From the NCBI GenBank assembly GCA_018065085.1, contig JAGHUA010000029.1, forward strand, positions 1-57,660: a DNA stretch of 57,660 bases. Reading direction: 5' to 3'. The notes under the pieces were generated by a model. The model ran no database searches. It worked only from the letters and a program-made list of their open reading frames with translations, and was not told where the DNA came from. Positions within the stretch are counted from its first letter, which is position 1, and each line of letters begins with the position of its first letter. Positions 7,687 through 28,100 of this stretch are shown one piece after another. The position numbers and the translations under genes were made by a program. The stretch comes from Candidatus Liminaster caballi (GTDB lineage: Bacteria > Bacteroidota > Bacteroidia > Bacteroidales > UBA3663).

Positions 7687-10600
7687 TTAATTAGTCATTA
7701 TGACCGCCTCGCGATGGATGCCATCGACAAGGATTCGCATTGGCTGTTCGAAACGGATGTGACGCACATGCTCGGTCTCGGTGACAGCCGGCATCGCATC
7801 GAGCACATCCTGCTGGATGACGCCATCGCCTCGGAACGCATTGATGGTAAGATAGCTTACGCCAAGCGACGTGAGGTTCTGGAAGAAGTGAGTGCCCTGC
7901 GACGGATCGACCTGAAATGAGTCGAGACCTGCCTCGATGATGACACGCGCACTGGAGATATGCGGCCACTTGACAGGAATGCCAAGCCACGGATCGCTCG
8001 AACCCCAACGGCCAGGACCCATGAGCACACAGCGGCGGTTGTCGGCAAGAAGCTGGCGGTTGATGTGCTCAATCTCGTCGGCAATGGCCTGGTTATGGCC
8101 GGCATTGAAGTTCTGCGGACGGACATAGACAAGGTCCTGCACATCGGTTATGATGCCGTGACCAATGGCCGAATGCGAACGGATAAGGGTGTCGCTGTCG
8201 GCAATCTGACTGAGATCCTCGCTGATGGACATTCGGTTATCGACCATCGGACGGATCTGAAGCAGATGGAAGTCGCCACAGTTGCGATAGATGGTGCGAT
8301 TCTCGTTGTTCGGATCGATGAACGGTTCCTTATAAAGATTAATGGCAAACTCAATCTCAACGGGACGACGCATCTCGTCCTGTCCGTAGCGCAAGACTTT
8401 CTGCATCAGCTCTGGCAACGGGAAGAGACCGTTCTGAAGTACGCCCACCATGGAGATAACCTTACGGTTGCGTCCTTCATAATAGCCATCATAGATACAC
8501 TGGGCCTCGGGATCGAACGTCGAACAAACCCAAGGCAACGTACCATCGGCCTCGGCCTGACGCACAGGAATGCGACGCAGATTGAAACCGTCATCGACCT
8601 TGAACTCGCCCGATTCGTTCTCCAGATCGAGGGCAAGGAATGCTGTCTGAGTGTCGCGCAAAGCAAGCTCCATCTCGCTCATCTGCAGGACCTGTGCCGG
8701 ATGTGCCGGACTGACTCGCAGGCTGACGCCACCATCGACGATGTATTTGCCAAGACCGAAGGCAAGGGAAACAGTACCCTCGTCGGCCTCCTCATCGCCA
8801 ATAGGATAATAGTTGACCGAACGCGCCACGCCCGAGATGACCGGATAGAAGCGTGTGCCATGCTGCTGACCAACGACTTCCTGAAGGATGACTGCCATCT
8901 TCTCCTGATCGATGACATTCTGTGTGGCAGTCATATAATCTTTCGAGCCCTGATAGAAGACGCTGGCATAAACCGACTTGACGGCACTGGCAAGAAGTTC
9001 CATGCGCTTATATTTGTCGGATACATAAGGAATCATGTATGTGCTGTAGATGCCGGCAAAAGGCTGATAATGCGAGTCTTCGAGCAGGGATGACGAACGA
9101 ATTGCAATCGGTCCATGCACAACATCCATAAATGCCTCAAGATCGCCAATAAGATGCTGAGGAAGATGTCCGCGCAGGAAAGCATGGAGGATATCATCGT
9201 CAGGCAACGGCGAGAGCGCGGTCTGATAGAGCTGGTTCTGATCCATGAACTCATCGAACACATCGGTACACAGCACCACGGTCTTTGGAATGCACGTGTT
9301 GAAACGCGGTGTGGAGATGTCAATGCTCTTGCTGTCTGCATAATCAGGACTCTGAAGATCCTCATAACGGGTGAGCATTCGGTCGAGGAACGCAAGACCA
9401 CGTCCCTTGCCGCCAAGCGAACCGTCACCGATGCGCGCAAAGTTGCTGTATTTATCGAATCGCTCACGCTGGAACACAGCAACGACACCCTGATTCTTCA
9501 TCTTACGATAGGAGACAATGGCATCGAAAATGATCTGACGATGGGCATCGACATCCTGGAGACTGGTCCATGTGATGCCCTTGAGGAACTCTGAGATAGG
9601 GAACATGGCTCGCGAACCAAGCCATCGCGACACGTTATTGTGCTTGATGTGATAGAGCAATGACTCGCGAGGAATGCTGAAGATATTGTTCTGAAGTTCC
9701 TTGAGGTTATGGACACGCGCCACCTCATGCAAAGTGTTTGGATCGCGGAACACAAAGTCACCGAAACCGAAATAGTTACGCACCATGTCACGCAGATCGA
9801 CGTCCATCTTCTTCGAATTCTTGTCGATGAAAATATAACCCTTCTCATGGGCACGGGCCTCGTTCTCCTGTTCGGCAGACTCCATGATGAGCGGAATATA
9901 AGGATCAGTCTCGCGTATGGCAGCAAGCAGACGGAAACCGGCATCTGCGGCCTTCTCCTCCTCAGTCGGATTGGCACCCTTGGCAGCAGTCAGTGGAAAT
10001 CGGCAATCGGAAATAACACCGAGCGCATTGCCCGAATACTGCTGATAGATGCGCCATGCCTCCTCATAGTTACGTGCAAGGACAATCTTTGGACGACCAC
10101 GCATACGGAGTGTCTCAAGCGTGGCATTGAGCGCCTCGGTGGCAAAGTTCTGACTCTGCTGAAGCACGAACTTATAGAGGTTGGGAAGGATGGATGAATA
10201 GAAACGGATATTGTCCTCAACCACGAGAATCATCTGTACGCCAGCCTGAATGTCGTGATCGAGGTTCATCTGATCCTCAATAAGCTTAATGATGGAGATA
10301 AGCAGGTCGGTATTGCCCAACCAGCAGAACACATACTCGAAGATGCTGAGATCTACGTTGCGCATGCGGTCGGTAATACCGTGACTGAATGGAGTCAGCA
10401 CCACAATCGGTACTGAAGGATAGTCTTTCTTGAGCGATGAGGCAATGTCAAATACATCGTTGTCGGGTGTGGATGCCTTGGCTGGCATACAGATGATGAG
10501 ATCGATGTTGCTGTTCTGCATCACACGGTCGGCACTCTCCTGCGAATCGACCTGAAGGAATCGCGGAGGAAATCGCAGTCCGAGTTCGGCATACTCCTGG

Positions 10601-10737
10601 AAAATCTTTTCGTCAACACGGCCATCATCCTCAAGCATGAAGGCATCATAGGGGTTGGCGATGAGAAGCACATTGCAAATGCGCCTCTGCATCAGATCGA
10701 CAAACTGCGTGTCGCGTAAACGAGGGATATTTGACAT
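7687..10737 (-). CDS. PEP/pyruvate-binding (PPDK ATP-grasp) protein with receiver-like domains
   Basis: 1016 residues from the ATG at 10737 (MSNIPRLRDTQ). A TTG four codons upstream is possible but overlaps the preceding stop. Residues about 10-150 and 165-335 look like two response-regulator receiver folds (CNVLLIANPYDAF; MILVVEDNIRFY). Residues about 435-980 carry the nucleotide-binding domain of pyruvate phosphate dikinase/PEP synthase: SLGGKGRGLAFLDRML, GPIAIRSSSLLEDSHYQPFA and the closing LLQIRPMV. The phospho-His swivel domain and the PEP-binding TIM barrel of true PEP synthase are absent, so it cannot run that full reaction. A phosphotransfer or sensing role is inferred. It is cytoplasmic, with no signal peptide. 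It is the last gene of a run of exported-protein genes. Confidence 0.85.
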   Translation of the reverse strand: MSNIPRLRDTQFVDLMQRRICNVLLIANPYDAFMLEDDGRVDEKIFQEYAELGLRFPPRFLQVDSQESADRVMQNSNIDLIICMPAKASTPDNDVFDIASSLKKDYPSVPIVVLTPFSHGITDRMRNVDLSIFEYVFCWLGNTDLLISIIKLIEDQMNLDHDIQAGVQMILVVEDNIRFYSSILPNLYKFVLQQSQNFATEALNATLETLRMRGRPKIVLARNYEEAWRIYQQYSGNALGVISDCRFPLTAAKGANPTEEEKAADAGFRLLAAIRETDPYIPLIMESAEQENEARAHEKGYIFIDKNSKKMDVDLRDMVRNYFGFGDFVFRDPNTLHEVARVHNLKELQNNIFSIPRESLLYHIKHNNVSRWLGSRAMFPISEFLKGITWTSLQDVDAHRQIIFDAIVSYRKMKNQGVVAVFQRERFDKYSNFARIGDGSLGGKGRGLAFLDRMLTRYEDLQSPDYADSKSIDISTPRFNTCIPKTVVLCTDVFDEFMDQNQLYQTALSPLPDDDILHAFLRGHLPQHLIGDLEAFMDVVHGPIAIRSSSLLEDSHYQPFAGIYSTYMIPYVSDKYKRMELLASAVKSVYASVFYQGSKDYMTATQNVIDQEKMAVILQEVVGQQHGTRFYPVISGVARSVNYYPIGDEEADEGTVSLAFGLGKYIVDGGVSLRVSPAHPAQVLQMSEMELALRDTQTAFLALDLENESGEFKVDDGFNLRRIPVRQAEADGTLPWVCSTFDPEAQCIYDGYYEGRNRKVISMVGVLQNGLFPLPELMQKVLRYGQDEMRRPVEIEFAINLYKEPFIDPNNENRTIYRNCGDFHLLQIRPMVDNRMSISEDLSQIADSDTLIRSHSAIGHGIITDVQDLVYVRPQNFNAGHNQAIADEIEHINRQLLADNRRCVLMGPGRWGSSDPWLGIPVKWPHISSARVIIEAGLDSFQVDPSQGTHFFQNLTSLGVSYLTINAFRGDGVIQQDVLDAMPAVTETEHVRHIRFEQPMRILVDGIHREAVIMTN

Positions 10738-10745
10738 CGGCAAAA

Positions 10746-12536
10746 TCAATATTCAAGTATTTCAGGCTTGACATTGCGGAATGAAGGCTGAGCCATTCCG
10801 ATACTTGCGCCGATATAGGTTGGGTCACAGATCACATAGCGTGTGCTGCCCTTGGTGACATTGTCGCCCTTGACATCGCCTGAGAACTTCACGCCTGTGG
10901 CAATGTGGTTAGGATAGTCGAGCAGGACAACCTTGAGGCCTGTAAGCTGGCGCACAAGATAAGAGAAGAGGATGGAACGATCCTCACAATCGGACTTTGG
11001 ATAGTAGAACATCTCCTCAACGAAGAATGGCTTCTCATAACCGAACTGTTCGTCATCGGTGGCGTAGTCAAATGCCTTCTGGCACCAGTTGAGGATGTAC
11101 TGGACAGCCTCTGTCTCGCTCTTGCCGGCGATGCCCTGCTTCAGGACTTCGAGCACAGGAGAGGCAGAGACAGGATTGACCTGAGCCTTATAATAGACTG
11201 AGAAGTCGCACTGAGGATACTGCTTGTAGAGCTGCATCTGACCAAGAGACACAGTTGCTGTGGCACTTGCACCGGTGTCGCGCGAAGTGTGGGTCGATGA
11301 CTTGGTGGCGGTGGCAAGCACTGGGACGGCAGAAACCTGCATGTCAATCTGGTTGACAGCCTTTGACGAAAGCTTCTGACAGAGTTGGAAGGTGCGGCCT
11401 TTCAGCACCTTGTCAATGTCATAGAAGTTCTGGTTGCCAAGCGTAACGTATGGAATGCCATAGATCTTACAGTCAGGCGAAACGAAGAGTGCAAGTTCGC
11501 CTCCGACACGTCCGACCTGACATTTATAACCCAGCTGGTTGAGCAGGAAGAGACGCAGAATGACACGCTCATTGGCCGAGTTGCAAAGGTTCTCGCTGAT
11601 CTTATTGACAAGAAGAACCGTGGCCCAACCGTTAAGTTTGAGAGTCTTGCGAGCCTCTGTGATATCGGCTACAATGGTCTTATAGTCGGAAGACGCGAGT
11701 TTCTCAACGGCATTGGCTACGCTGTTCTCATCGGTGCCAGACACAGCAGCCTTGTTCTTGAGATTGGTGTCGATATAGATTGGCATGCCAAGATAGTCAA
11801 TCTGCTGACGGCCTGAACCGCCGGTGAAGAGAGCCGATGAAGAAGCAATGGATGGTGTTGCTGCCGGTGCTGGAGTGGCCGATGGAGCCGGCACTGGAGT
11901 TACAGATGGAGTGGCAACAGGTGTCTTAGCTGCAGGAGCAACAGGTGTAGCCGGAGTAGATGGAACTACAGGAGCAACCGGAACAACAGGAGTAGATGGG
12001 GTAGCCGACACAACTGGCTGTGTTGGGATTACAGGCTTGACCGGTTTCTGGTCAAGAGGCTTGGCATCGGCAGGAACGACCGACGAAGATTTGCCAGCCG
12101 AAGGTTTCTTGTCCTTTGGCTTCTGATTGGCAGGATTCTTGGTTTTGGCAGCAGTAACACTGCCCTGCTGACCCTGACGGATGACACCCGGTTCGTCGGC
12201 ATCGAAGTCGAAACCGAAATCAACATCCGGCTCCTTGTCGGCATTGATCAATGGCTTAGTGTCAGGAAGATCAGATGGGTCAACGGCAGGAAGGTCCTTT
12301 TCACTGACCACAACCGGAACGGAAGGCTTTGGCTTTGGCAAAGCTTTCTCAGCTGGCTTTGGTTCGGTATCTTTCCATGGTTCACGCAGGAAATTGATAA
12401 ACTCCTTGTTAGCATCCTCGATGAACTTATCGAAATCGGCCATCTCTTCGGCCATGAAGTCATCGGTCTGAGCCTGAACGCCGGTAAACGGAAGAGACAG
12501 AAACGCCGTAAGCAAAATGAATGGTAATTTTTTCAT
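10746..12536 (-). CDS. Exported protein with Pro-rich linker and transglutaminase-like domain
   Basis: 596 residues from MKKLPFILLTAF at 12536, which gives a clean signal peptide (ends VQA-QTD). A farther upstream Met adds a non-signal extension and is less likely. Residues about 170-235 form a long Pro/Val/Ala/Thr linker. The C-terminal about 120 residues hold a papain-like transglutaminase triad: Cys517 in SDCEDRS, His544 in DYPNHIATG and Asp571 in VICDPTY. Such domains act as proteases, amide ligases or, in Bacteroidota, as unexplained envelope enzymes. The stop lies 8 bp from the ATG of the PPDK-like gene. A hairpin at 12567-12600 separates it from the upstream gene. Confidence 0.85.
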   Translation of the reverse strand: MKKLPFILLTAFLSLPFTGVQAQTDDFMAEEMADFDKFIEDANKEFINFLREPWKDTEPKPAEKALPKPKPSVPVVVSEKDLPAVDPSDLPDTKPLINADKEPDVDFGFDFDADEPGVIRQGQQGSVTAAKTKNPANQKPKDKKPSAGKSSSVVPADAKPLDQKPVKPVIPTQPVVSATPSTPVVPVAPVVPSTPATPVAPAAKTPVATPSVTPVPAPSATPAPAATPSIASSSALFTGGSGRQQIDYLGMPIYIDTNLKNKAAVSGTDENSVANAVEKLASSDYKTIVADITEARKTLKLNGWATVLLVNKISENLCNSANERVILRLFLLNQLGYKCQVGRVGGELALFVSPDCKIYGIPYVTLGNQNFYDIDKVLKGRTFQLCQKLSSKAVNQIDMQVSAVPVLATATKSSTHTSRDTGASATATVSLGQMQLYKQYPQCDFSVYYKAQVNPVSASPVLEVLKQGIAGKSETEAVQYILNWCQKAFDYATDDEQFGYEKPFFVEEMFYYPKSDCEDRSILFSYLVRQLTGLKVVLLDYPNHIATGVKFSGDVKGDNVTKGSTRYVICDPTYIGASIGMAQPSFRNVKPEILEY

Positions 12537-12566
12537 TGTGAAAAGGACATTATTATAATTGTTGAA

Positions 12567-12600
12567 AATCATCCAAGGGCTAATTACCCCCTGGATGATT
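12567..12600 (-). terminator. Intercistronic hairpin, weak terminator or attenuator
   Basis: On the minus strand 12588-12600 pairs with 12567-12579, 12 of 13 pairs with an 8-nt loop, followed by UUUU and then mixed sequence. It sits between the 212-residue gene and the transglutaminase-like gene. It would either partly terminate transcription or protect an RNA end after processing. Confidence 0.6.
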
Positions 12601-12625
12601 AATTATTCAGTATCTCGCAAGTAGA

Positions 12626-13264
12626 TTACTCAGCGTTGTTCATAGCGTCGCCGATGAAGTCAGCAACCTGGTCAGAAAGGCTCTGGAGCTTGTAAGCATC
12701 CATTGTCTCCTTTGCGATGGCAGCAGCCTGCTTGTTAACAGCGGTGAGGTCGATTGTGCCGAAGTACTGATACTCATACATACCCTTCTTATCTGGGCTC
12801 TTGCGCTTGAGCACGAAGCTATCCTTGATAACGCCAGCGAGCTTCTGGTTGATCTTCTGCTCGAAAGCCTCACCAAACTTATCGATCTCCTCGCCGTTAG
12901 AACCAGAGTCGAGAGACTTGATCTTACCAACGATCTCAGCGCTAACGCGAGCGCAATACTGAGCACGAGCGTCCATGGCAGCAGCGTTCTTGCCAATCTT
13001 GTCAGAAGCCTGAACTGAGTTGCCGATTACACCGATGTGAGTCTCTTCGTCAGCAAGGAGGAATGTGTTGTACTTAGCAACGAGCATGTCAAGAGACATA
13101 GTGCTGTTGATTGGTGTCCAACCTTCCTTGTTGTACTTCTTAACCTGCTTCTTAGCATCCTTCTTGAGCTGCTTTACGGTCTGAGCGTTAGCAGTAGTAG
13201 TGATAACAGGAGCTGCACCCATGCAGAACAATGCGGTGAGCATAATCACAAGAATCTTTTTCAT
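12626..13264 (-). CDS. Exported protein of unknown family
   Basis: 212 residues. Signal peptide MKKILVIMLTALFCMGAAPV with a cleavage site near ANA-QTV. The mature part starts with a Lys-rich helix (QLKKDAKKQVKKYNKEGW). It continues with a mixed domain containing MDARAQYCARVSAEIVGKI, similar in spacing to the Ala-rich helix of LPP20-type domains (a GYG-like loop followed by an ARxxA helix). I cannot name the family. It sits 46 bp downstream of the LPP20-like gene and within the same run of exported-protein genes. Its length and Lys/Ala-rich start resemble the 210-residue protein at 18883-19515. Confidence 0.75.
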   Translation of the reverse strand: MKKILVIMLTALFCMGAAPVITTTANAQTVKQLKKDAKKQVKKYNKEGWTPINSTMSLDMLVAKYNTFLLADEETHIGVIGNSVQASDKIGKNAAAMDARAQYCARVSAEIVGKIKSLDSGSNGEEIDKFGEAFEQKINQKLAGVIKDSFVLKRKSPDKKGMYEYQYFGTIDLTAVNKQAAAIAKETMDAYKLQSLSDQVADFIGDAMNNAE

Positions 13265-13310
13265 AGTCTTTGTGAATTAAAAATTAATAATATTGGTTAT
13301 TTGAAATTTA

Positions 13311-14612
13311 TTACCAGTTTGTGGAATATGTCAGGTTGATGGCAATAGCCTCGGTGGCCTGTGTCTCTGGATTGACAACGGTCAGCTTGCCCTTGACAAA
13401 GCCTGCTGATGATGTCTTGACCTCGCGCACCTTGAACAGACCCTCAGCCACAGCCTTGATCTGAACGACACCCTTCGAACGATAGACGCCATTGATATCG
13501 TCGAACACGATTGGAGCCTGGAGTTCAGGTACGTTGAGTTCGATTGACTTCAAACCGAATGGCACTCCGCCACGGTTGTTGACCGAGATACGGATGGAGA
13601 TATCGGTAAGTGTAGAGCCATCTGAATCGGCAGCCTGCAGATAGACCTTACCCTCAGGGATGACAGAGAACTTCTGTGCACCCTTGGCATCGGACTTCTT
13701 TGGCAGGTAAGCCTTTGCTGCAACCTTCTTGCCATCGGCCAGGAAACTGATGTCAAGGAAATTATCTTCGTCATCGAGGCAGTCCTCATCGTTGTAAGTG
13801 ATGATGAAAACACCATCCTGCTGACGGATGTTGATCTGTGAAGCACACTCAGACTTTACCTTTGGAGCAGCGCCGGTTGCCACTGGATTGCCATTAAGAA
13901 GAAGCTGAGCTACACACTCGCCAGGAGCTGTGAATGATGTTGCAACCGAGAGATATGAATAGAGGCTCTTGTACTCCTGGATGACGGCATCGACCTCGGC
14001 CTGACGGACACGGTCAGGGAAGAACTCCTTCAAAGCCATGAGCTGGGCAATGCCAGCCTTAATGTCCTTGACGTTCTCGATCTCACCGATCTGATCGTGG
14101 ATGCGCTTCAACTCTGCAACCTTTTCCTTCTCAAGAGTCTCATATTCGAGAATGAGAGCATTGAGCTGGGCATCAGAGAATGGATAGAGAACATGATAGA
14201 CATAGACAATGCGACCGTTCTCCTGCTGCTTGACCCAATAGGTCTCCTCTGCCTTCGAGAGTGTTATGCCCTTGAGGAAAGGAAGATTGGCACCCTTGAT
14301 GCGGGTCTTCTCATGATAGATGTCAGTGGTATTGTTCATACCGTTCTGAGTCACACTTAGAGCCTCGGAAGTCTGATCGACCTCAATGTTGCTGGCGATG
14401 GCCAGAACCATCTGGTTCTTCAGATCGACGAGGGCATTCTCCTGTGCAGCCGCCAGATCAGCACCATAGCCGGTGACAACAATCATACCCTGATTGGCAG
14501 AGCCCAACCAAGATGGAGCCTTCTTTGCACTTGCCTCAAGAATCTTGTTCTGGGCAAAGACTGCGCACACCGAGCAAACGAAAATGGCTAAAACAAATGA
14601 AATGCGTTTCAT
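13311..14612 (-). CDS. Exported LPP20-like domain protein
   Basis: 433 residues with a signal peptide (ends VFA-QNK). Residues about 28-170 match the LPP20 pattern: APSWLGSANQGMIVVTGYG, then an Ala-rich helix (DLAAAQENALVDLKNQMVL), then a central strand region and VYHVLYPFSDAQLNALI. LPP20 domains occur in Helicobacter Lpp20 and in the Vibrio flagellar outer-membrane protein FlgP. A coiled-coil segment (about 160-215) is followed by beta-rich domains to the end. No lipobox Cys is present, unlike LPP20 itself. It lies 24 bp from the next upstream gene, consistent with one operon. Periplasmic or outer-membrane location is inferred. Confidence 0.8.
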   Translation of the reverse strand: MKRISFVLAIFVCSVCAVFAQNKILEASAKKAPSWLGSANQGMIVVTGYGADLAAAQENALVDLKNQMVLAIASNIEVDQTSEALSVTQNGMNNTTDIYHEKTRIKGANLPFLKGITLSKAEETYWVKQQENGRIVYVYHVLYPFSDAQLNALILEYETLEKEKVAELKRIHDQIGEIENVKDIKAGIAQLMALKEFFPDRVRQAEVDAVIQEYKSLYSYLSVATSFTAPGECVAQLLLNGNPVATGAAPKVKSECASQINIRQQDGVFIITYNDEDCLDDEDNFLDISFLADGKKVAAKAYLPKKSDAKGAQKFSVIPEGKVYLQAADSDGSTLTDISIRISVNNRGGVPFGLKSIELNVPELQAPIVFDDINGVYRSKGVVQIKAVAEGLFKVREVKTSSAGFVKGKLTVVNPETQATEAIAINLTYSTNW

Positions 14613-14636
14613 AGGCTATAACTATGAAAGATTGAA

Positions 14637-15773
14637 TTATTCAGACCAATCGACAAACATGTCGCGAATGACAACCTTGGTATCACCGATCTCAAGGTCA
14701 AGATAGTCGAAGCGTGGAGTCTTCTCCTTCTGTCGAAGGATGTAGAAAGTGTGCTTACGCTCAACACCGAAAGGAGCACTTGTATAGTAGCTGTACTTAG
14801 AGTCCTCGCGTGTGTAGAACTTAGATGAGATGTCAGCACCGTTATTGTCGATACATGTCTTAGCTGCGATATACAGGCCATCGCGGTTGTCAAGTTCGTT
14901 GGTGAAGACAGTGTTGATCTCAACACGGCCGTTCTTCCAGCTGCCCTTGACGGAGATGATATCAAACTCAATCTCGCCGTTTGAAACCACAATCTGAGCC
15001 TTGGCTGGCTTAGCAGCTGGAGCAGGAGCTGGTGTTGGCGCAGGAGCTGGAACCTCAACAGGAACCTCGACAACGACAGGTTTCTCGATTACCTTCTCAA
15101 CAATTACCGGCTTCTCAACGACACGCTCAACCTCGACAATCTGAGGATCCTTGCCCATGTTCTGGAGGCAGAGGGTGAGCAGCTGGCTTGCCTGATCGAA
15201 GCAAGGCAGAGCCTCGCTGATGGCAGCAAGATAGGCAGCACAAAGTTCGTACTCGGCACCATCATAGAGCATCTGAGCCTTTGACATGATGGCGGCACAG
15301 TTGTTGGCATAATAGTCTTGAATCTTCTCACGTGCCACACGCACGAACTTAGTAAACTGGCTGTCAGTTGGCTTGATGTTGGCAATCATCTCGAGCATTG
15401 CCTTATCCTCGCCACCTGTCACTGTGCCCTTAAGAGGGATTGTGACACTGTGGTACTGAGCACCATCGACGATGTTCTTAGCCACAAGAGTAAGTTCACC
15501 CTGACAGAGAGTGACGGTCTGCATTGTGCCCTGTGATGCCTCCATGTTGGTGACAGTCACGATAGGTTCGATGCCGAATACACAAGCGTTACCACCGGCA
15601 GCCGCACTGTTGCGAGTCATGGCAGCGGTGAGTTTGGTGGTGAGGTTCTTGTTGGCCTGAGCCGAGAGGTCTTCCTGTGTTGAAGGCAGAGCCTGGAACA
15701 TCACTACAGCCTGGGCGTTAGCCGAAGCATAAAGTCCGAGGCAAAGTAAAAGAGTTGAAAATATCTTTTTCAT
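14637..15773 (-). CDS. Exported two-domain protein with Pro/Val/Glu linker, paralogue of the next gene
   Basis: 378 residues with a signal peptide (ends ANA-QAV). Residues about 22-205 are clearly related to the product of 15797-16417. Shared blocks include NSAAAGG, GELTLVAKN, YHSVTIPLKG and AREKIQDYYANNCAAIMSKA. Residues about 215-262 form an extended Val/Pro/Glu then Pro/Ala linker (VEKPVIVEKVIEKPVVVEVP) like those that span the periplasm. The last about 115 residues are a separate beta domain ending in VDWSE. The function is not recognised. The linker suggests the two folded parts sit at different distances from the membrane, which is inference. Confidence 0.8.
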   Translation of the reverse strand: MKKIFSTLLLCLGLYASANAQAVVMFQALPSTQEDLSAQANKNLTTKLTAAMTRNSAAAGGNACVFGIEPIVTVTNMEASQGTMQTVTLCQGELTLVAKNIVDGAQYHSVTIPLKGTVTGGEDKAMLEMIANIKPTDSQFTKFVRVAREKIQDYYANNCAAIMSKAQMLYDGAEYELCAAYLAAISEALPCFDQASQLLTLCLQNMGKDPQIVEVERVVEKPVIVEKVIEKPVVVEVPVEVPAPAPTPAPAPAAKPAKAQIVVSNGEIEFDIISVKGSWKNGRVEINTVFTNELDNRDGLYIAAKTCIDNNGADISSKFYTREDSKYSYYTSAPFGVERKHTFYILRQKEKTPRFDYLDLEIGDTKVVIRDMFVDWSE

Positions 15774-15796
15774 AGCTTATTTTTCGTTTCACTATA

Positions 15797-16417
15797 TTAC
15801 TGAGGATTCTTACACATCTCGATAAGGAAAGCTGCCTGTTCGTAGCAACCTACAGACTCTGGGATGCTCTGCAGGTAGATGACACACTTCTCGTACTCCT
15901 TCGAGCGATAGTATGTCTCGGCCTTCTGGACGATGGCAGCGCAGTTGGTCTGATAGTAAGATTTGATCTTCTCGCGGGCAGTGGTCACAAACTTGGTGAA
16001 CAATGGGTCGGCAACCTTCAGACGCTTGATCATATCAAGCTTAAGGTCTTCCTCTGTGCCCATCACATTGCCACGGATAGGAATGACCACGCTATGATAC
16101 ATCGAACCGTCTATGCGATTCTTGACCACGAGTGTGAGTTCTCCGTGAGCCGAGGCTACAGGAGTGTTAGGATCCTCTATCTTTGTAACTTTGCCAAGCA
16201 CCATGCTCGACTCGACTACAAACACACCGTCCTGACCGCCAGCCAGCGCACTGTTCTTGGTCAATGCCTGGGTGAGCTTAAGATCGAGCTGTGACTTGAC
16301 CTGAGACGAAAGTTCTGCCTGTGCGTTAGGTGACAGGGTGAACATGATGGTCTGAGCAAATGCCGAAGCACCGATCAAAAGAGAAATGACGAGTGTGATA
16401 AAGAATTTCTTATTCAT
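15797..16417 (-). CDS. Exported single-domain paralogue of the neighbouring gene
   Basis: 206 residues from MNKKFFITLVISLL at 16417. A Met four codons upstream is possible. The ATG overlaps the end of the upstream gene by 8 bp (ATGAATAA), so translation is probably coupled. Signal peptide ends AFA-QTI. The mature part aligns along its length with the N-terminal domain of 14637-15773 (NSALAGGQDG, GELTLVVKN, AREKIKSYYQTNCAAIVQKA, then CYEQAAFLIEMC). Tandem duplication followed by gain or loss of the linker-plus-beta domain explains the pair. Family not recognised. Confidence 0.85.
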   Translation of the reverse strand: MNKKFFITLVISLLIGASAFAQTIMFTLSPNAQAELSSQVKSQLDLKLTQALTKNSALAGGQDGVFVVESSMVLGKVTKIEDPNTPVASAHGELTLVVKNRIDGSMYHSVVIPIRGNVMGTEEDLKLDMIKRLKVADPLFTKFVTTAREKIKSYYQTNCAAIVQKAETYYRSKEYEKCVIYLQSIPESVGCYEQAAFLIEMCKNPQ

Positions 16418-17330
16418 TGGTGATAACAAAATTTACAATCTGACCGTCGCTCTTCACTGTCTTAGCCTTTACGCCGACTGGCTGAAGCATGGCATTGAGG
16501 CTCTTGAGGAGGATTGAGCGCATACGGCCGATCTGGAATGGACGACCTGTTGACTGGTCATATACAGGTACGCGGAACTCCATGTTGATATACTGCTCAG
16601 ATGACTTGAGGTCACCGTTCGAATTGAATGCGTTCTGCTCGATCCAGTCACGAAGCTCGGTCTCAAGGTCATTGCCGTTGGTACCGACCTCTGTGTAGGC
16701 ATCGATGTCGCAACCCTGGGCAAAGTCAATCTTCACACGGAGGAGACGACCCTCAGACACCATGTTGGCAAAACCGTTGGCAAACTCATCGAAGAAGTTG
16801 TTTGAAATCATGCCAACCACGCGAGTGGCAAGGCGCACACTGTCGGTGGTGTTGAACTTACCGCTTGAGTAGCTCTTGGTGGCGAATGTCTGTGCGACCT
16901 TGGTCTCCTGGGCATCGATGGCAACAGAAACCTCAAGCGAACCGTCGCTGTGGCGCTGCACCATAGGCTTGAAATAAACGACAACGTCGGTCGAAGAATT
17001 TTCGACAAGCATCTTGGCGAGGTCTGAGCTTGCGCCCTGTTCGCGTGAGAGCATTCCCTCGGTGCGGAGCTGACGCAGAGTGGCCACATAATCCTTGATT
17101 GGGTAGTCGTGCGAGGTGAAGATCTCCTTGATCTTAGCAAGGCACATAACAACAACCTCATTGTCCTGAGCTGCAGCCTCAAGTTTCTCAGGAGTCATTG
17201 TCGAACCGAGGTCCGGCATTACCATAACAGTAGGGTTGGCTGCCTGTGAACCGCCGCCCTGAGTATTGTACTGGGCGAACAACGAGCAACAGGCGATAGC
17301 ACCGCAGATGGTAGCAAAAATACGTTTCAT
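16410..17330 (-). CDS. Exported protein, possibly the DUF6175 family
   Basis: 306 residues with a signal peptide (ends LFA-QYN). After a Gly/Ser-rich stretch the mature protein begins NPTVMVMPDLGSTMTP, then alternates helices and strands (STDVVVYFKPMVQ, DSVRLATRVVGMISNNFFDE, RLLRVKIDFAQGCDID). This overall plan recalls CsgG-like and DUF6175 Bacteroidota proteins. I am not certain of the name. The end overlaps the start of the following gene by 8 bp. The coupling indicates equal-ratio synthesis with the small paralogue protein. Confidence 0.8.
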   Translation of the reverse strand: MKRIFATICGAIACCSLFAQYNTQGGGSQAANPTVMVMPDLGSTMTPEKLEAAAQDNEVVVMCLAKIKEIFTSHDYPIKDYVATLRQLRTEGMLSREQGASSDLAKMLVENSSTDVVVYFKPMVQRHSDGSLEVSVAIDAQETKVAQTFATKSYSSGKFNTTDSVRLATRVVGMISNNFFDEFANGFANMVSEGRLLRVKIDFAQGCDIDAYTEVGTNGNDLETELRDWIEQNAFNSNGDLKSSEQYINMEFRVPVYDQSTGRPFQIGRMRSILLKSLNAMLQPVGVKAKTVKSDGQIVNFVITNE

Positions 17331-17402
17331 CTTTTCAATCAGTTAATTTTATTGTTAGACAAATACTGATGGTAGAAGTTTAAAAATTCAATAGGACAAA
17401 GT

Positions 17403-17849
17403 TTAGAAGCCGAACTTCTTATAACCGTTATTACGCAGGTAAGAGTCGAGGGCATTGATGCGGATAGTGATGTCGAAAGTCATCTTGTTTGACTTTGCAC
17501 CCTTGTCCTTGGTCAATGGACCCTGTGAGACTACGTTCTGGATGTAGTCCTTATACTGCTTGTTGTCGATAAAGTCATCGAGAGCCGAAGTCTCCTGCTT
17601 GAGCAAAGGAGCAGACTTGCCATCAATGCCCGTATAGAGTACCATGCGCAGAACACGCACCTCAGCATCCTCGCGACACTGTGCGTCCTTCTTGCCATAA
17701 CCGGTCACACGGATGGTATAGACACGGCTTGCCTGATCGACAGTAGCCTGATACTGGCAAGTGCCGCCATACTGCACAGGCTTAACCTTCTGAGCCTGAA
17801 CACCGACTGAAAGCAGGGCAATGATAATGCCCAAAATAAGTTTCTTCAT
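17403..17849 (-). CDS. Small exported protein with FlgT-N/LPP20-like pattern
   Basis: 148 residues with a signal peptide (ends VQA-QKV). The core YTIRVTGYGKKDAQCREDAE followed by VRVLRMVLYTG has the Gly-x-Gly loop and following amphipathic helix seen in LPP20 and FlgT N-terminal domains. The C-terminal half (TFDITIRINALDSYLRNNGY) is a strand plus helix. The domain is complete with no extension. It lies 27 bp downstream of the CsgG/FlgT-like gene. The family is assigned from pattern only. Confidence 0.75.
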   Translation of the reverse strand: MKKLILGIIIALLSVGVQAQKVKPVQYGGTCQYQATVDQASRVYTIRVTGYGKKDAQCREDAEVRVLRMVLYTGIDGKSAPLLKQETSALDDFIDNKQYKDYIQNVVSQGPLTKDKGAKSNKMTFDITIRINALDSYLRNNGYKKFGF

Positions 17850-17876
17850 AATCGTTGTGGTATTAAGTTTCTGATA

Positions 17877-18761
17877 TTATTTCTCTTTCAATATGGACTT
17901 CACACGGATCCAGCCACCCTTTTCGAGGCAAGTGAACACCTCGTTGCTGCCCTTTGTGATCTTGCATATTGATGAATTGTCTGCAACCTGTTTGGCCTCG
18001 CACATACCGACAGGAGTCTCGATGATGGTCTTGTCGGCCTCGTTGAATGCCATGTGGAAAATCTGGAACTTGGTGCCCTTTGTGACACCATAGTTGCTGC
18101 CGGCGGTAATCTTCAGATCCTCGCCCTCGAAACCATTGCCCTTGGCATAGATTGAGAAATGGTTTGCAAAATGATATACGAACTCAGCCTTCATATCTTC
18201 GAGCGACTGGGCAACGGCGTCCTCACGGCGAAGCTTCGGAGCCTGTTTGCTCACGTCAGTCACGAAACGGTGAGTGTCGATGATTCGGATATTAGGATCC
18301 TTACGGTCCTTGGTGACGATTGAAATGCGCAGGATGGCAGTATAAGCCTTGCCGCCTGCCTTTGGTGTGAGCTGGCACTGGGTGATATCGACCTCCAAAA
18401 GCCAGTCGCTTGCCAGCATCTTCACGGCGTTGTCGTGCATAAGACGCTGACGCTCTTCTTCCGAAAGATCCAGGGCACGTTCGCTGCGCATCTCCTCGTC
18501 CATGCGGGCGGCTGCCTCCATGTCGGTGATGTTGAAGCGCTTTGACTCCTGTGCGGCATCCATGATCACCTGTCGTGTCTGGTCGCAGATATAGTCGATA
18601 AACTCCTGTGCAGCCGGACGTGACTGTGCGGCAATGACAAGTTTGCTGTCGGTCACCTTGACGGTATCCATACGGAGCACCATACCACCCTGCTGTTCGT
18701 CATCATCGGCAAAAACAGGCAGTGCGAGAGCACAGAGGAGCAGTGTCAGAATCTTTCTCAT
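17877..18761 (-). CDS. Exported CsgG/FlgT-like protein
   Basis: 294 residues with a signal peptide (ends VFA-DDD). Residues about 50-175 resemble CsgG-type proteins: a helix then SKRFNITDMEAAARMDEEM (compare the 'f.vveR..l..il.E' pattern), then a strand KMLASDWLLEVDITQCQL. Residues about 205-290 resemble the FlgT C-terminal beta-barrel: a DLKITAGSNYGVTKGTKFQI core, then GMCEAKQVADNSSICKIT and GGWIRVKS. In Vibrio, FlgT builds the H ring around the flagellar basal body. No flagellar genes are visible here, so a ring or scaffold role in another envelope structure is inferred. First gene after the leader hairpin at 18782-18830. Confidence 0.75.
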   Translation of the reverse strand: MRKILTLLLCALALPVFADDDEQQGGMVLRMDTVKVTDSKLVIAAQSRPAAQEFIDYICDQTRQVIMDAAQESKRFNITDMEAAARMDEEMRSERALDLSEEERQRLMHDNAVKMLASDWLLEVDITQCQLTPKAGGKAYTAILRISIVTKDRKDPNIRIIDTHRFVTDVSKQAPKLRREDAVAQSLEDMKAEFVYHFANHFSIYAKGNGFEGEDLKITAGSNYGVTKGTKFQIFHMAFNEADKTIIETPVGMCEAKQVADNSSICKITKGSNEVFTCLEKGGWIRVKSILKEK

Positions 18762-18781
18762 TTTTGGTTTGCTTTTAGACG

Positions 18782-18830
18782 CAGTATTAAGAGATGGGAA
18801 CTTTTGGCCATTCCCATGCTCTTAATCCTG
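18782..18830 (-). promoter_or_regulatory. Leader hairpin directly upstream of the CsgG/FlgT-like gene
   Basis: An imperfect inverted repeat pairs 18782-18800 with 18811-18830 (attaagag and tgggaa blocks, one bulge), with a roughly 10-nt loop. Its edge lies 20 nt from the ATG at 18761. There is no U-run on the minus strand, so it is more like a leader or processing structure than a terminator. Confidence 0.55.
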
Positions 18831-18882
18831 CTGTTTCCTTATATATATTATATAATGTGTATGCAAAAAGTATTGCTACAGA

Positions 18883-19515
18883 TTAGTTGTTCTTCATTGT
18901 CTCGATAATCTCAGAGTCGGTCTTGATCTTCTCACGGATCAAAGGCACAACTGCGGTGATCATCTTAGCCTGCTTGAGGATGTTCTTGCCCTGAAGACCA
19001 AGAGCGATGAGCTGCTTAGGATCCTGAGCAAAACCCATAACAGACGAAGTCAGGGTTACAGCACTTGCAGAGATAGCTACAAACTCAGCTGTACACTCCT
19101 TGTACTCGCTCTTCTTCTTCTCAACATCGATGTCCTGGCCTGTACGGCGGTCGTATGCGCGATCCACAACTACTACCTTTTCACCAGTAATCTCATCCTC
19201 AGCCTCGTGAGTCTCGAACTCGATGTAGCCAACCTTCTCATATACGCTGTTCAAAGCTGGAACAACGATGTTGAGTGTTGCTACCATGTCATCGGCAGCA
19301 GGTACGCCGATAGTTGCCAGTGGCTGATAGTTTGCACAGAGCTCTTCGTACTCAACGAGACGCTTTTCTGCCTTTGCAGCTTTCTTGTCAGCCTTAGCTG
19401 CCTTCTTCTCTGCCTTCTGGGCAGCCTTTTCTGTCTTGTCATCCTTAGCCGATACGGTAGAAACCGCTGTGCCAAGTGTGAGCAACGCCATGATAATGAC
19501 GAGAATCTTTTTCAT
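18883..19515 (-). CDS. Exported Lys/Ala-rich protein of unknown family
   Basis: 210 residues from MKKILVIIMALLTLG at 19515. An upstream in-frame Met adds 33 residues before the signal peptide and runs through the promoter, so it is rejected. Signal peptide ends near VSA-KDD. It is followed by a strongly charged helix made of AEKKAAKADKKAAKAEK repeats, then a mixed domain (VVVVDRAYDRRTGQDIDV, IALGLQGKNILKQAKMI). The Lys/Ala helix may bind peptidoglycan, nucleic acid or anionic lipid. That is inference. A near-ideal promoter lies at 19554-19585. The downstream gene starts 121 bp after its stop, so read-through into the exported-protein run is possible. Confidence 0.8.
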   Translation of the reverse strand: MKKILVIIMALLTLGTAVSTVSAKDDKTEKAAQKAEKKAAKADKKAAKAEKRLVEYEELCANYQPLATIGVPAADDMVATLNIVVPALNSVYEKVGYIEFETHEAEDEITGEKVVVVDRAYDRRTGQDIDVEKKKSEYKECTAEFVAISASAVTLTSSVMGFAQDPKQLIALGLQGKNILKQAKMITAVVPLIREKIKTDSEIIETMKNN

Positions 19516-23350: not shown

Positions 23351-25171
23351 TTAATAACCAGGGTTCTGATACATATCAGCCGAAGTATTACTGCTGATCT
23401 CATCACTTGGAATAGGACGGTACCACTTAACTTCACCAGCACCCATCATATCCTCAACCTTATCAATGAGGCAGTTGTAGGCAACGGTGTACTTAACAAG
23501 CTGGTGTGTACGACGGAGATCCATCCAACGTGTGCCCTCTGCATAAAGCTCACGGGCACGCTCGTCAAGCACGAGGTCAACCATACGGTATGTGCCAGTG
23601 AATGTGAATGCAGGTTCGTAAGAGGCTACAGATGTAATCTTAGCAGCCTTGGCACGCGAACGAACTTCGTTCACATAGTTAAGACAGCCTGTCTCATCGT
23701 TCATCAAAGCGCAAGCCTCAGCAGCAACGAGGTAAGACTCAGAAGCGTGGAGCATAACGATGTCGCGATAGCACTCAGAAGTGTTGCCGTTTGACTGTGG
23801 AGTCTCAGGATCATCCCACTTCTTAACGCATGGAGCATAGTTCATACGTGTCTGGAGAGTAGCGTATGTATAAGCTGCACCGCCCTTGTCAGTAGAAGAA
23901 TCAACTACGAACTTTGTGCCATTGAACTTATAGGCAACAACAGGATCCTGCATCAAATATGCATAAGGTGCAGTCTTAAGAGCCTTATAATCGCCGCAGT
24001 TAGCAACGATGGCAGCAGCAACATCAACGAGCTTAGCCTCAAATTCAGCCTTTGTTACATAGTAAGGAGCATAGCAATAAGCGACTGGAAGCTTTGAGAG
24101 ATCAGCTGCATTATAATATGCATAATAGCCTTCTGTGCTCCATGTGCCACTCTCAGTGTTATAGAAAGTGGTCATGAATGTAGCATCATAACGCTCATCA
24201 CCCTTCTCGAAGAGCTTGAGAGACTTATTTGAAGGAACCTTATCAGAACCAACTGACTTCATATAAGAAGCAGTGATATCGCCATAGTATGAACCGAAAT
24301 CGTTCTGAAGACCGTGACCGCCACCTGTACCAGGGAAGCTTGCGCGATCATACTGAACAGAGAAGAATGTCTCAGGGTTCTTGTCCTCATTGGCTGGAGA
24401 CCACTTCTGCTCGAAACTCTGGGTGAGGGAGATACCGCTGATAGCCTTCTCAGCCCAAGCCTTAGCCTCAGCTGCATAAGAAGTACCGGTTACAGTATAT
24501 TCACCAGTCTTTTCGTCAGTCATAGTTGTCTCAAGATCCCATGCAGCAGCAAGGTTGAACTTAGCGCAGAGAGCAGCAACGGCACGCTTGTTTACTGTGC
24601 CATCATACTCAGCGGGACGCTCTGGAGCAAGATCGTAAGCAGCCTTAAGGTCAGAGATACAGTTGTCGTAGATAGTCTTAAGATCCACGCGACCATATGA
24701 ACGCTCAGCATTGTTGATGTAAGTGGTTGAATATGGCACAGGACCGAAGTGCTGGGTCAGATAATAGTAACCGAGAGCACGGATAAAGAGAGCGTCAGCC
24801 TTATAGGTGTCACCACCATAATAGATAAGACCGTTGGCACTGTTGACCAGCTCGAAGCAAGAAACATAGAATTTCTTGACATCGCTATTCTCAGCAGAGA
24901 GACTGTAGCGGACATAATCAGACTCACCGCGGCCACGTGAAGGCCAGTAGAGGTCAGTGCCCTGCTCGTTGATATCTATGGCTGTGGCAATAGCACGGAT
25001 ACCATAGAAAGTGTTGTTGCGCCAAGCCTTCAAGCCCTCGGCAGTAGAGAAATACTCCTCAGCTGTCTGGCCACCAGCGCTCTTGTTCTCGGCCTCAAGG
25101 AAGTCAGAGCAGCTCATGAGTGAAGCGCCGGCAAACAAGGCCAAAGTTGAAATATAAAGAATCTTTTTCAT
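23351..25171 (-). CDS. SusD/RagB-family nutrient-binding lipoprotein
   Basis: 606 residues with lipobox SLMSCSDFLE. SusD hallmarks are seen: an N-terminal EAENKSAGGQTAEEYFSTAE segment, TPR-like helices (DALFIRALGYYYLTQHFGPV), and the C-terminal SESYLVAAEACALMN and LYAEGTRWMDLRRTHQLV blocks. SusD proteins cap the SusC barrel on the cell surface and bind oligosaccharides or other nutrients. It lies 27 bp downstream of susC. No glycoside hydrolase lies in the locus, so the substrate cannot be read from context. Confidence 0.95.
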   Translation of the reverse strand: MKKILYISTLALFAGASLMSCSDFLEAENKSAGGQTAEEYFSTAEGLKAWRNNTFYGIRAIATAIDINEQGTDLYWPSRGRGESDYVRYSLSAENSDVKKFYVSCFELVNSANGLIYYGGDTYKADALFIRALGYYYLTQHFGPVPYSTTYINNAERSYGRVDLKTIYDNCISDLKAAYDLAPERPAEYDGTVNKRAVAALCAKFNLAAAWDLETTMTDEKTGEYTVTGTSYAAEAKAWAEKAISGISLTQSFEQKWSPANEDKNPETFFSVQYDRASFPGTGGGHGLQNDFGSYYGDITASYMKSVGSDKVPSNKSLKLFEKGDERYDATFMTTFYNTESGTWSTEGYYAYYNAADLSKLPVAYCYAPYYVTKAEFEAKLVDVAAAIVANCGDYKALKTAPYAYLMQDPVVAYKFNGTKFVVDSSTDKGGAAYTYATLQTRMNYAPCVKKWDDPETPQSNGNTSECYRDIVMLHASESYLVAAEACALMNDETGCLNYVNEVRSRAKAAKITSVASYEPAFTFTGTYRMVDLVLDERARELYAEGTRWMDLRRTHQLVKYTVAYNCLIDKVEDMMGAGEVKWYRPIPSDEISSNTSADMYQNPGY

Positions 25172-25198
25172 TTTAGTATCAAGTCTTTGGATTTTTGA

Positions 25199-28100
25199 TT
25201 AGAACTTCACGCTTGCACCAAACTGCCATGTGATGGTTGAAGGACCATCCTGCTTGTTGGTAGCACCTGCCCATTCAGGATCGAAGCCCTTGTAGTCGGT
25301 GAAGACGAATGGGTTGGTAACGGTAGCATAGAGACGGAGCTTAGACAAACCGATGTGGTTGAGCACCTTCTTGCTGAATGTATAACCGAGGGTAATGTTC
25401 TTAACCTTGACGAACGAAGCATCTGTAAGCTTGTTGGTGTCGCTGGTCCACTGTGAAGAACCTACACCACCATTAGCTGCACCATTGTTAGGGAATGGAT
25501 AAGAACCATAGTGAGTCTGCTTCTGATATACAGGATTGATGTATGTACCGTCAGCATTTACGCCATCGCAGTCGATGAGTGTACCTGCTGGGATATAGTA
25601 GTCAACCTGGAGGTGGTTACGGCCACGGTCGCCCCAGTTGAGATACTCGTCATAGAAGTTAGAAGATACGGTGAACTTCTGCTTAGCATAAACCGATACA
25701 GAGAGATCCCACTGCTTGTAGCTGAGGTTAGAGGTGAAACTGCCTGTCCACTTAGGATCTGAGCTGTACACCTTCTTGTCTTCATCGTTGAACTTACCAT
25801 CGCCGTTCACGTCGCGGATGATAGCGTTACCTTCAGTCCAGCCGTAGCACTCATAGTAGTAGTCGCACTGGCGAACCTTCTGGCCAGGAGTGAAACCATG
25901 CTCGGTTGCGATAGGCTTGTTAGGTACGGTCATCTCGCGATCGCTCACGATACCGTCCCAGATGAAGGTATAAACGTTGTTGATAGGACGACCGATGAAG
26001 AGGTTGTCGCCTGGCATATCCATACCTGTACCGTTGATCTCCTTAACCTTGTTCTTGTTGGCAGAGAAGTTGAATGTGGTAGTCCAGTGCCAGTTGCGGC
26101 CATCGATGTTAACTGTGGTGAGAGATACCTCGACACCACGGTTCTGAACTGTACCTACGTTTGTCTTCATCTCCTTGACAGCGCCATTTACGAGACCTGC
26201 CTCAAGAGGGAGCTTAACAGGATAGAGAAGATCGACAGCCTCCTTGTTATAAACATCGAGTGTACCGGTGATGCGGTTGTTGAGGAAACCGAAGTCGAAA
26301 CCTGCGTTGTACTCGGTAGAAGACTCCCAAGTAAGGTTGCGGTCAACAACACCATTTGGCCAAGCGCCAGTGTAGTGGTAGCCACCGAATGGATAGTAGT
26401 GACCAGTGGCAACAGTCTGCTGTGTAGCATAGTTGCCGATACCGTCGTTGTTACCAGTCACACCGTAAGAGAGACGGAGCTTGAGGTTAGAGAGCCAGTC
26501 AGAAGTGTTGGCCATGAAGCTCTCGTCAGAGATACGCCATGCAGCAGCTACTGATGGGAATGAACCCCAACGGTGACCGTCGGCGAACTTAGAAGAACCA
26601 TCCCAACGTACGGTACCTGTGAGCATGTAACGACCCTTATAAGAATAGTTCGCACGCAAAGCCCAAGAGATCATCGAGCTCTCTGAGTAGCTTGAAGAGT
26701 AGTCGCCTGTGGTCTTGTCAGAAGCAGAACCGACGTTGTACCAGAGTGAGCCTGGGAGAACGCGGCGTGATGTTACGCTAAGTTTCTCGCTGTTGCCAGC
26801 GGTAACTTCGTTAAGGGCGAGAATGTCAGCGTTGTGACCGCCCTTGAATGACTTGCTATAGTTAACCTGGTTGGTCCATGTCCAGTTGAATGAACGGTGC
26901 TGAGTGTTGACTGCACGGCTGCCATCGCCATCTGGCTCATAACCCTTAACGTAGGCACTCTCATCGTTGAATGTACCCTCACGGTAGGTTGAGAAACTTG
27001 GAGCGAATGTGGTCTTGAGTGAGAGACCGTCCATTGGCTTAATCTGGAGATATACGTTACCAAGCATACGCCATGTCTGCTTGTTCTTTGTCTGATTCTC
27101 AAAGAGAAGGAGTGGGTTTGGCTGGTCAGAGAACTGGAAACCGTTGTCTGAGCCCATTGCCTCATAGTTACCTGGCTTCTCGTTGCGTACGCCATCAGCA
27201 TTGTAAGGAACCATGAATGGGTTCATACGATATGCATACTGCACGGCATTGTCGTCAGCATAGTCGTTCTCCTGACGGGCGAGGTTGAAGTTGAAACCGC
27301 CAGTCACATACTTAGAGATCTTAGCGTCAACAGAACCCTTGAAGTTTATGCGGCTCTGCTTATCGTCCTCATAGATACCCTGCTCGCTGTTGTAGCCGAG
27401 ACCCATGTGATAGCTTACGTCACCGCCACCTGCTGTACCGCTGACAGCGAGATAGTGGTTCTGCTGGTAACCGTTGCTAGTAACGGCATCCGGCCAATCG
27501 TATGTTTCGCCAGCCTTAAGACGCTGCTTAAGAACAGAGTAGCCGCCTGCCTCAGAGTCATCGCTCTTCCAGAGACCCATCTGCTGGAATGTGCCCATCT
27601 GATAAGTTGGCTGACCGCTGCGTGCATTAGCAGCACCACCCTCAGCGTATGTGAGGAACTTGAGGAAACGGTAGTTGTAGAACTCCTGGCCATCCATGAA
27701 GTCTGGCATGCGTGCTACGTTGGTGATACCATAGTAACCATCGTAGCTGATAGAAGCCTTAGACTCCTGCTTGTTGACACCCGAACCGCTCTTGGTTGTG
27801 ATCATTACAACACCAGCGGTAGCGCGGCTACCATAGATAGCTGTAGAAGAAGCGTCCTTGAGAACGTCGATACGCTCGATGTCCTGTGGGTTGAGGAAGT
27901 CCATATCATCGCAGATAACACCGTCGATAACATAGATTGGGTGTGTGTCAGAGTTGGTAGAAGACTTACCACGGATCTCGATAGCGAAACCGCCACCTGC
28001 ACGACCAGAAGACTGGGTAATGTTAACGCCAGGAACAGAACCCTGGAGGTTAGCCATTACAGAAGGAGCACCCTTGGCATTGAGTTTATCGGTAGAAACC

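Follow-up and report, generated by a model that had tools for sequence, protein, structure and literature searches.

The H-ring of Vibrio, an assembly of FlgO, FlgP and FlgT, lines the outer membrane on its inner side (PMC7990780, PMC6375700), and in V. fischeri flgT and flgOP are neighbouring genes (PMC3948606). An SHS2-like fold is common to FlgP, Lpp20 and FlgT, and within the FlgP/FlgT family the formation of rings is associated with an insertion that follows the SHS2 helix (PMC12222027). It has been proposed that only sodium-driven flagellar motors have rings that contain FlgT (PMC6375700). With this background, we examined a row of nine genes for predicted exported proteins (g1 to g9 in transcription order) at positions 19515 to 10746, on the minus strand, of a 57,660-nucleotide stretch from Candidatus Liminaster caballi, a member of the Bacteroidales (assembly GCA_018065085.1, contig JAGHUA010000029.1; the whole stretch is referred to as the window).

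The genes g2 to g9 make up a cassette whose order recurs in another family of the Bacteroidales, and their products, which are predicted to be exported, may assemble into a ring-like scaffold in the periplasm, against the inner side of the outer membrane, as a counterpart of the H-ring without a flagellum. We consider this interpretation quite possible, if a little short of probable. The cassette is read in this way because of the composition of the H-ring, the kinship of the SHS2-like folds and the failure to find FlgI, the flagellar P-ring protein: as a single marker gene it gave 0 matches in the host genome (2.94 Mb in 90 contigs, 89% complete), and 3 of 14 controls were positive. The predicted fold of g2 resembles the middle and C-terminal domains of FlgT in the Vibrio structures (3w1e, 8z5n), and the LPP20-type proteins g7, g8 and C5, the last a family of related loci, are reminiscent of FlgP. 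In contrast to the H-ring, the host genome gave no FlgI match and g2 of the window is without the FlgT N domain. We know of no H-ring counterparts of the DUF6175 protein, of g5/g6, of the transglutaminase-like protein or of C2, another family of related loci. The FlgP/FlgQ basal disk of Campylobacter shares the SHS2/LPP20-type building block but is flagellar and, in the description compared, has no FlgT-like or DUF6175 partner.

The preliminary description of this DNA held that no known system combines these proteins. This was too strong, because the H-ring unites FlgO, FlgP and FlgT and because an SHS2-like fold is common to FlgP, Lpp20 and FlgT. That the system is undescribed stands in so far as the neighbourhood is conserved and a search of open-licence literature found no paper on DUF6175, on CsgG together with LPP20 or FlgT, or on LPP20 and FlgT in Bacteroidetes, and none that speaks of FlgT-like proteins; it does not stand in so far as the folds are akin to those of an assembly type already described.

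Conservation of the gene order

All nine genes are intact open reading frames (ORFs) that start with ATG and have no internal stops. By eye, each begins with a signal peptide of the Lys/Arg-hydrophobic-AxA type, and no lipobox was seen in any of the nine. The intergenic distances from g1 to g9 are 121, 27, 72, -8, 23, 24, 46 and 89 bp, the 8-bp overlap being that of g4 and g5; the last distance takes the start of g9 at an internal ATG at 12536, which we preferred over 12572 because it gives the better signal peptide. The preliminary description was thus accurate on the run of nine exported-protein genes and on their close spacing with one overlap, as it was on the presence of two paralogues (g5 and g6, 46% identity over about 202 residues) and of two proteins with Pro-rich linkers (g6 and g9, from their sequences). 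Pfam gave no match above cut-off for g1, g2, g3, g5, g6, g7 or g8, and NCBIfam none for any of g1 to g9.

The shared strand of the nine genes is weak evidence of cooperation because most long ORFs in the window's left half share the minus strand, and the case for cooperation therefore rests on conservation. To follow this, g4, g6 and g9 were searched in 149 genomes of the order, and profiles were built from 40 stretches, of which other genomes supplied 38. In relatives the usual order is C2 (a longer protein in the place of g2), g3, g4 and g6, after which g7 follows either directly or behind C5, and g8 sometimes comes next. Among the 36 loci from the order that carry g4, which had been chosen for having g4 or g6 matches, the counts are 29 for g2 or C2, 31 for g3 as a separate gene or in a fusion, 28 for g6, 13 for g7, 3 for g8 and 1 for g9. 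Outside the window, g6 has a DUF6175 place no more than 2 kb away on its own strand in 30 of 35 cases. The counts for one locus, L069, are low since the ORF caller missed its g4, which truly lies at G123:C47:130028-130816.

A second set consisted of the best 80 of 516 confirmed loci from public records, anchored on g4, in which same-strand neighbours within six ORFs were counted. Here g6 was found in 76, g3 in 74, C2 in 68, g7 in 46, C5 in 24, g9 in 4 and g8 in 2, counts that are depressed by short contigs; 7 contigs are common to both sets. On either strand, g9 was found in 6 of these 80 stretches, two of them having it on the opposite strand. Flavobacteriia are represented among the 80 by Salegentibacter echinorum (L186), a cultured species whose strain DSM 24579 carries the core as C2, g3, g3, g4 and g6.

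The best match to g7 (36% identity) came from a genome of another family, G540, and its locus, L198, has g2, a fused g3-g4, g6, g7, g8 and g9 in the order of the window, with a 4-bp overlap of g8 and g9. The fused protein is 427 aa long, with the g3 match at residues 24-135 and the g4 match at residues 173-422, and g9 of this locus likewise has a long Pro-rich linker. Every gene of the row except g1 and the duplicate g5 is repeated in order. The core order g2 to g8 recurs across the Bacteroidota, and g2 to g9 in this one relative, so that the neighbourhood conservation proposed as a check in the preliminary description was found, and the nine genes are not a chance run.

The cassette is unevenly distributed. 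DUF6175 is present in 36 of 149 genomes of the order, in 13 of 296 genomes of the phylum, few of which are from the order of the window, and in 6 of 15 genomes of the genus; the comparison set for the family was 14 relatives, all of one genus. The g7 family occurs in 53 of 393 genomes of the order but in only 1 of 15 of the genus. Genes occurring independently elsewhere had been named as evidence against a common system, and in part they do so. From 54 places with g7 outside our own genome, 20 loci were taken, picked partly because they lie away from g4: g4 is nearby in 10, a contig end cuts 1, and 9 have g7 without g4, 7 of these with an adjoining C5. Homologues of g9 are mostly located elsewhere: when 8 weak or fragmentary rows and those of the window itself are left out, a DUF6175 gene stands 5 kb or less away at 1 of 39 places.

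The first gene, g1 (18883..19515; 210 aa), encodes a small, Lys-rich exported protein that had been counted as part of the system. A protein search with it found one relative besides itself (41%), and no match was obtained among the profiled loci of relatives. A nine-gene unit was rejected on these grounds, and we take g1 as a neighbour for which no link with the conserved cassette was found.

A related second cassette, in which g2 is followed by a g3-g4 fusion and the LPP20 protein C7, is present in three loci of the same genus (L097, L099, L100) and in L105. Zinc-ribbon proteins lie upstream of it, one of which (in L100) has a Peptidase_C25 match, and an SLT transglycosylase-type gene stands further upstream in L097, L099 and L100.

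Protein families of the cassette

The lead gene of the cassette in the window is g2 (17877..18761; 294 aa), which occupies the place of C2 in relatives. The monomer model of g2 resembles the middle and C-terminal domains of FlgT (Foldseek E 2e-13; next family 1.4e-4), and two FlgT-type structures (3w1e, 8z5n) rank above CsgG (2e-13 versus 1.2e-3). In these alignments the match begins at chain residue 94 (3w1e) or 117 (8z5n_0), directly past the g2 signal peptide, and the N-terminal domain of FlgT is missing from the g2 chain. The FlgT likeness first noted for this gene is therefore upheld by fold as well as by profile. Pfam LpoB matched 6 of 13 members of the g2 family (best 2.1e-8) and CsgG 2 of 13 (best 1.9e-6), in each case without a match for g2 of the window; no FlgO match is listed among the members. 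The host genome has a CsgG match of its own on contig C84, and the surrounding stretch (L107) is without cassette genes.

C2, the lead gene in most of the relatives examined, was never found in one locus with g2: C2 occurs in 21 and g2 in 10, the window included. The profiles show that C2 has a stretch in common with the C-terminal part of g2. A final Phe is a mark of outer-membrane barrels, and in a set of 85 C2 proteins, in which some contigs are counted twice, 49 of the 61 long forms end in Phe and 18 of the 22 short forms in Lys. An OMP_b-brl match was obtained for 2 of 30 C2 proteins (best E 2e-4). Judged from these sequence features, C2 likely carries an outer-membrane barrel anchor, and g2 of the window is without this presumed barrel part. 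Genes read from the sequence as ExbD-like pairs and as an alkaline-phosphatase-like protein, a gene set of the proton-driven-motor type, adjoin the cassette immediately upstream of C2 in L076, L077, L081 and L083; by ORF lengths the ExbD-like arrangement is also present in several of L108-L139.

The small exported protein g3 (17403..17849; 148 aa) is fused with g4 in 10 loci of the order, as well as in L198, L199, L213, L214 and L216. The g4 protein (16410..17330; 306 aa) is a member of DUF6175 (PF19672), as had been proposed, with 123.9 bits against a cut-off of 23, but a divergent one, with 19-23% identity to 52 relatives. From its model we assign to residues 31-192 a TolB-N/CsgG/PelC/FlgT_M fold, of the same kind as that of g2. 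The g6 protein (14637..15773; 378 aa) has an N-terminal part related to g2, a Pro-rich linker and a C-terminal part, and g5 (15797..16417; 206 aa) is a short paralogue that holds the N-terminal part only. Profile searches of the PDB with g3, g4, g6 and g7 gave nothing convincing.

Relations between the families were assessed by profile-profile comparison (hhalign) after trimming of signal peptides by a simple rule, since untrimmed scores between families are too high, in part because signal peptides align with one another. The maximum over 245 control pairs was 8.0%. The rule is crude and over-cuts some rows, which depresses true scores also (g2-g4 fell from 94.5 to 58.6). Two groups emerged. 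The first contains g2, g4, g6 and C2 (g2-g4 58.6%, g2-g6 42.7%, C2-g2 27.0%), and the second g7, g8, C5 and C7 (g8-C5 97.0%, g7-C5 70.4%, g7-C7 62.9%, with weaker scores of 46.4% for C5-C7 and 32.9% for g7-g8). At the level of sequence profiles, g5/g6 are tied to g2, and g7/g8 to LPP20-type proteins.

The link to LPP20 runs through C7, which scored 40.4 bits against Pfam LPP20 (PF02169), above the cut-off of 25.9; C5 remained below it with 18.0. LPP20 also matched 3 of 15 members of the g7 family (best 7.1e-4), and g7 and g8 of the window gave no match. The g7 protein (13311..14612; 433 aa) has a probable LPP20-type N-terminal part followed by a C-terminal part, and g8 (12626..13264; 212 aa) is an exported protein of the same group, found after g7 in L070, L184, L187, L198 and L205. 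The earlier label of an unrecognised protein thus no longer fits g8, given its score with C5. For g3, conversely, an LPP20-like character had been claimed and remains unproven: the protein is in neither profile group, LPP20 is absent from the matches of 28 members, and g3-C5 is not above the control maximum. The candidate kinship was withdrawn when trimming of the signal peptides brought g3-C5 from 86.5% to 7.1% and took g3-g7 off the top list. Public records give three g7 homologues (P0016, P0024, P0045) the name 'plethodontid receptivity factor PRF', which is probably wrong.

The last gene, g9 (10746..12536; 596 aa), encodes an exported transglutaminase-like protein with a long Pro-rich linker. 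Its score with Transglut_core (PF01841) is 20.5 bits, under the cut-off of 23. Residues C529, H556 and D583 (numbered from 12572), which we take to be the Cys-His-Asp triad of a transglutaminase, are kept in all 9 of 9 aligned g9 sequences, that of the window included. At 579-2723, the window encodes a protein that combines PEGA repeats with an FGE-sulfatase domain; contig C57 of the host genome (L106) carries a homologue of it near a second g9 homologue.

A possible periplasmic ring and competing explanations

If the cassette does specify a counterpart of the H-ring, the FlgT-type and LPP20-type modules would oligomerise in the manner of FlgT, FlgP, CsgG and PelC. In relatives, the long C2 with its likely barrel would fix the ring to the outer membrane; in the window, g2 without the barrel part would be held by its partners. 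In both g6 and g9 the Pro-rich linker would likely cross the peptidoglycan, and g9 would likely modify or cross-link either a partner or the wall close to the ring. Such a cassette of FlgT-type and LPP20-type proteins, conserved where no FlgI was found, would show that ring parts of this kind are of use beyond flagella. It also gives DUF6175 a first structural and genomic setting and names a small gene set that is open to deletion, tagging and imaging.

A bolder form of this proposal is that Bacteroidota have an H-ring without a flagellum, in which FlgT-, DUF6175- and LPP20-type proteins form an outer-membrane periplasmic ring for an undescribed envelope machine. We put this forward tentatively, as a conjecture that is rather more apt to fail than to hold. 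If true, FlgT-type rings would be a general collar of the outer membrane, with the flagellar ring as one of its uses.

The cassette could instead be an export or surface-assembly apparatus in which the FlgT/CsgG/PelC-type proteins form or underlie an outer-membrane pore, comparable to CsgG for curli or PelC for the Pel polysaccharide, and the TolB-N-type fold in both g2 and g4 agrees with this. We nevertheless think it unlikely, as the FlgT-type structures surpass CsgG in the Foldseek comparison and g2 has an FlgT_C-like second domain. By eye, no lipobox was seen in g2, g4, g5 or g6, unlike in the lipoprotein CsgG, g2 of the window has no Pfam CsgG match, and Pfam recognised neither a secreted substrate nor a partner resembling CsgE or CsgF in the 20 relatives' proteins scanned, a small share of the loci.

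Somewhat less likely again is a set of proteins like LpoB and TolB that regulate how peptidoglycan is made or how the outer membrane constricts, reach through the wall by Pro-rich linkers and act with a transglutaminase-like enzyme. The fold of g4 is shared with these proteins, and Pfam LpoB is matched within the g2 family as described above. Against this, the two-domain match of g2 is of FlgT type rather than LpoB, the cassette has several such proteins and no TolB-type beta-propeller, the scans of the cassette families turned up neither a penicillin-binding protein nor a division gene, and the patchy distribution speaks against a core role in the wall.

Finally, the occurrence of g7 and C5 without g4 in 7 of 20 loci, the location of g9 mostly elsewhere and the lack of any link found for g1 would suit exported proteins that have separate functions and a few widespread periplasmic folds, are co-transcribed and stay together through shared regulation, but the tight order across families, the g3-g4 fusions and the replacement of C2 by g2 point to a joint function and make this improbable. 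An accessory role in the type IX secretion system (T9SS) was dropped, as DUF6175 is about equally frequent in genomes with GldM_4th (33 of 133) and without it (3 of 16).

Transcription signals and neighbouring genes

Two gaps in the row hold strong hairpins, and none was found in the three inner gaps examined (g2/g3, g3/g4 and g7/g8). The gap between g1 and g2 (18762-18882) folds with -35.0 kcal/mol (z -5.72; 0 of 200 shuffles), and its hairpin (18781..18831) has no T run and is a possible boundary or attenuator. Between g8 and g9, a hairpin with a 13-bp stem followed by UUUU (12567..12600; -22.3 kcal/mol, z -4.07, 0 of 200 shuffles) is terminator- or attenuator-like and was also picked up by the terminator scan, which made 9 calls in total against a shuffle mean of 7.4; the promoter scan made 17 against 9.2. 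Both hairpins lie on the minus strand. This pattern is consistent with a g2 to g8 transcription unit in the window and with g9 lying behind an attenuator or terminator. Because of the gene order in L198, we still count g9 with the cassette.

Directly downstream of g9, at 7687-10749, the window encodes a large protein with a PPDK_N domain, and another genome of the genus has a homologue of this gene (L101 6659-9718), placed two genes upstream of g2. On the other side of the row, a pair of SusD type and TonB-dependent-receptor type (23351-28483) stands upstream of an HD-domain gene, and a TIR-domain protein (TIR_2 and ThsB_TIR matches) lies beside a TPR protein at 29547-32839, possibly as a defence or signalling pair.

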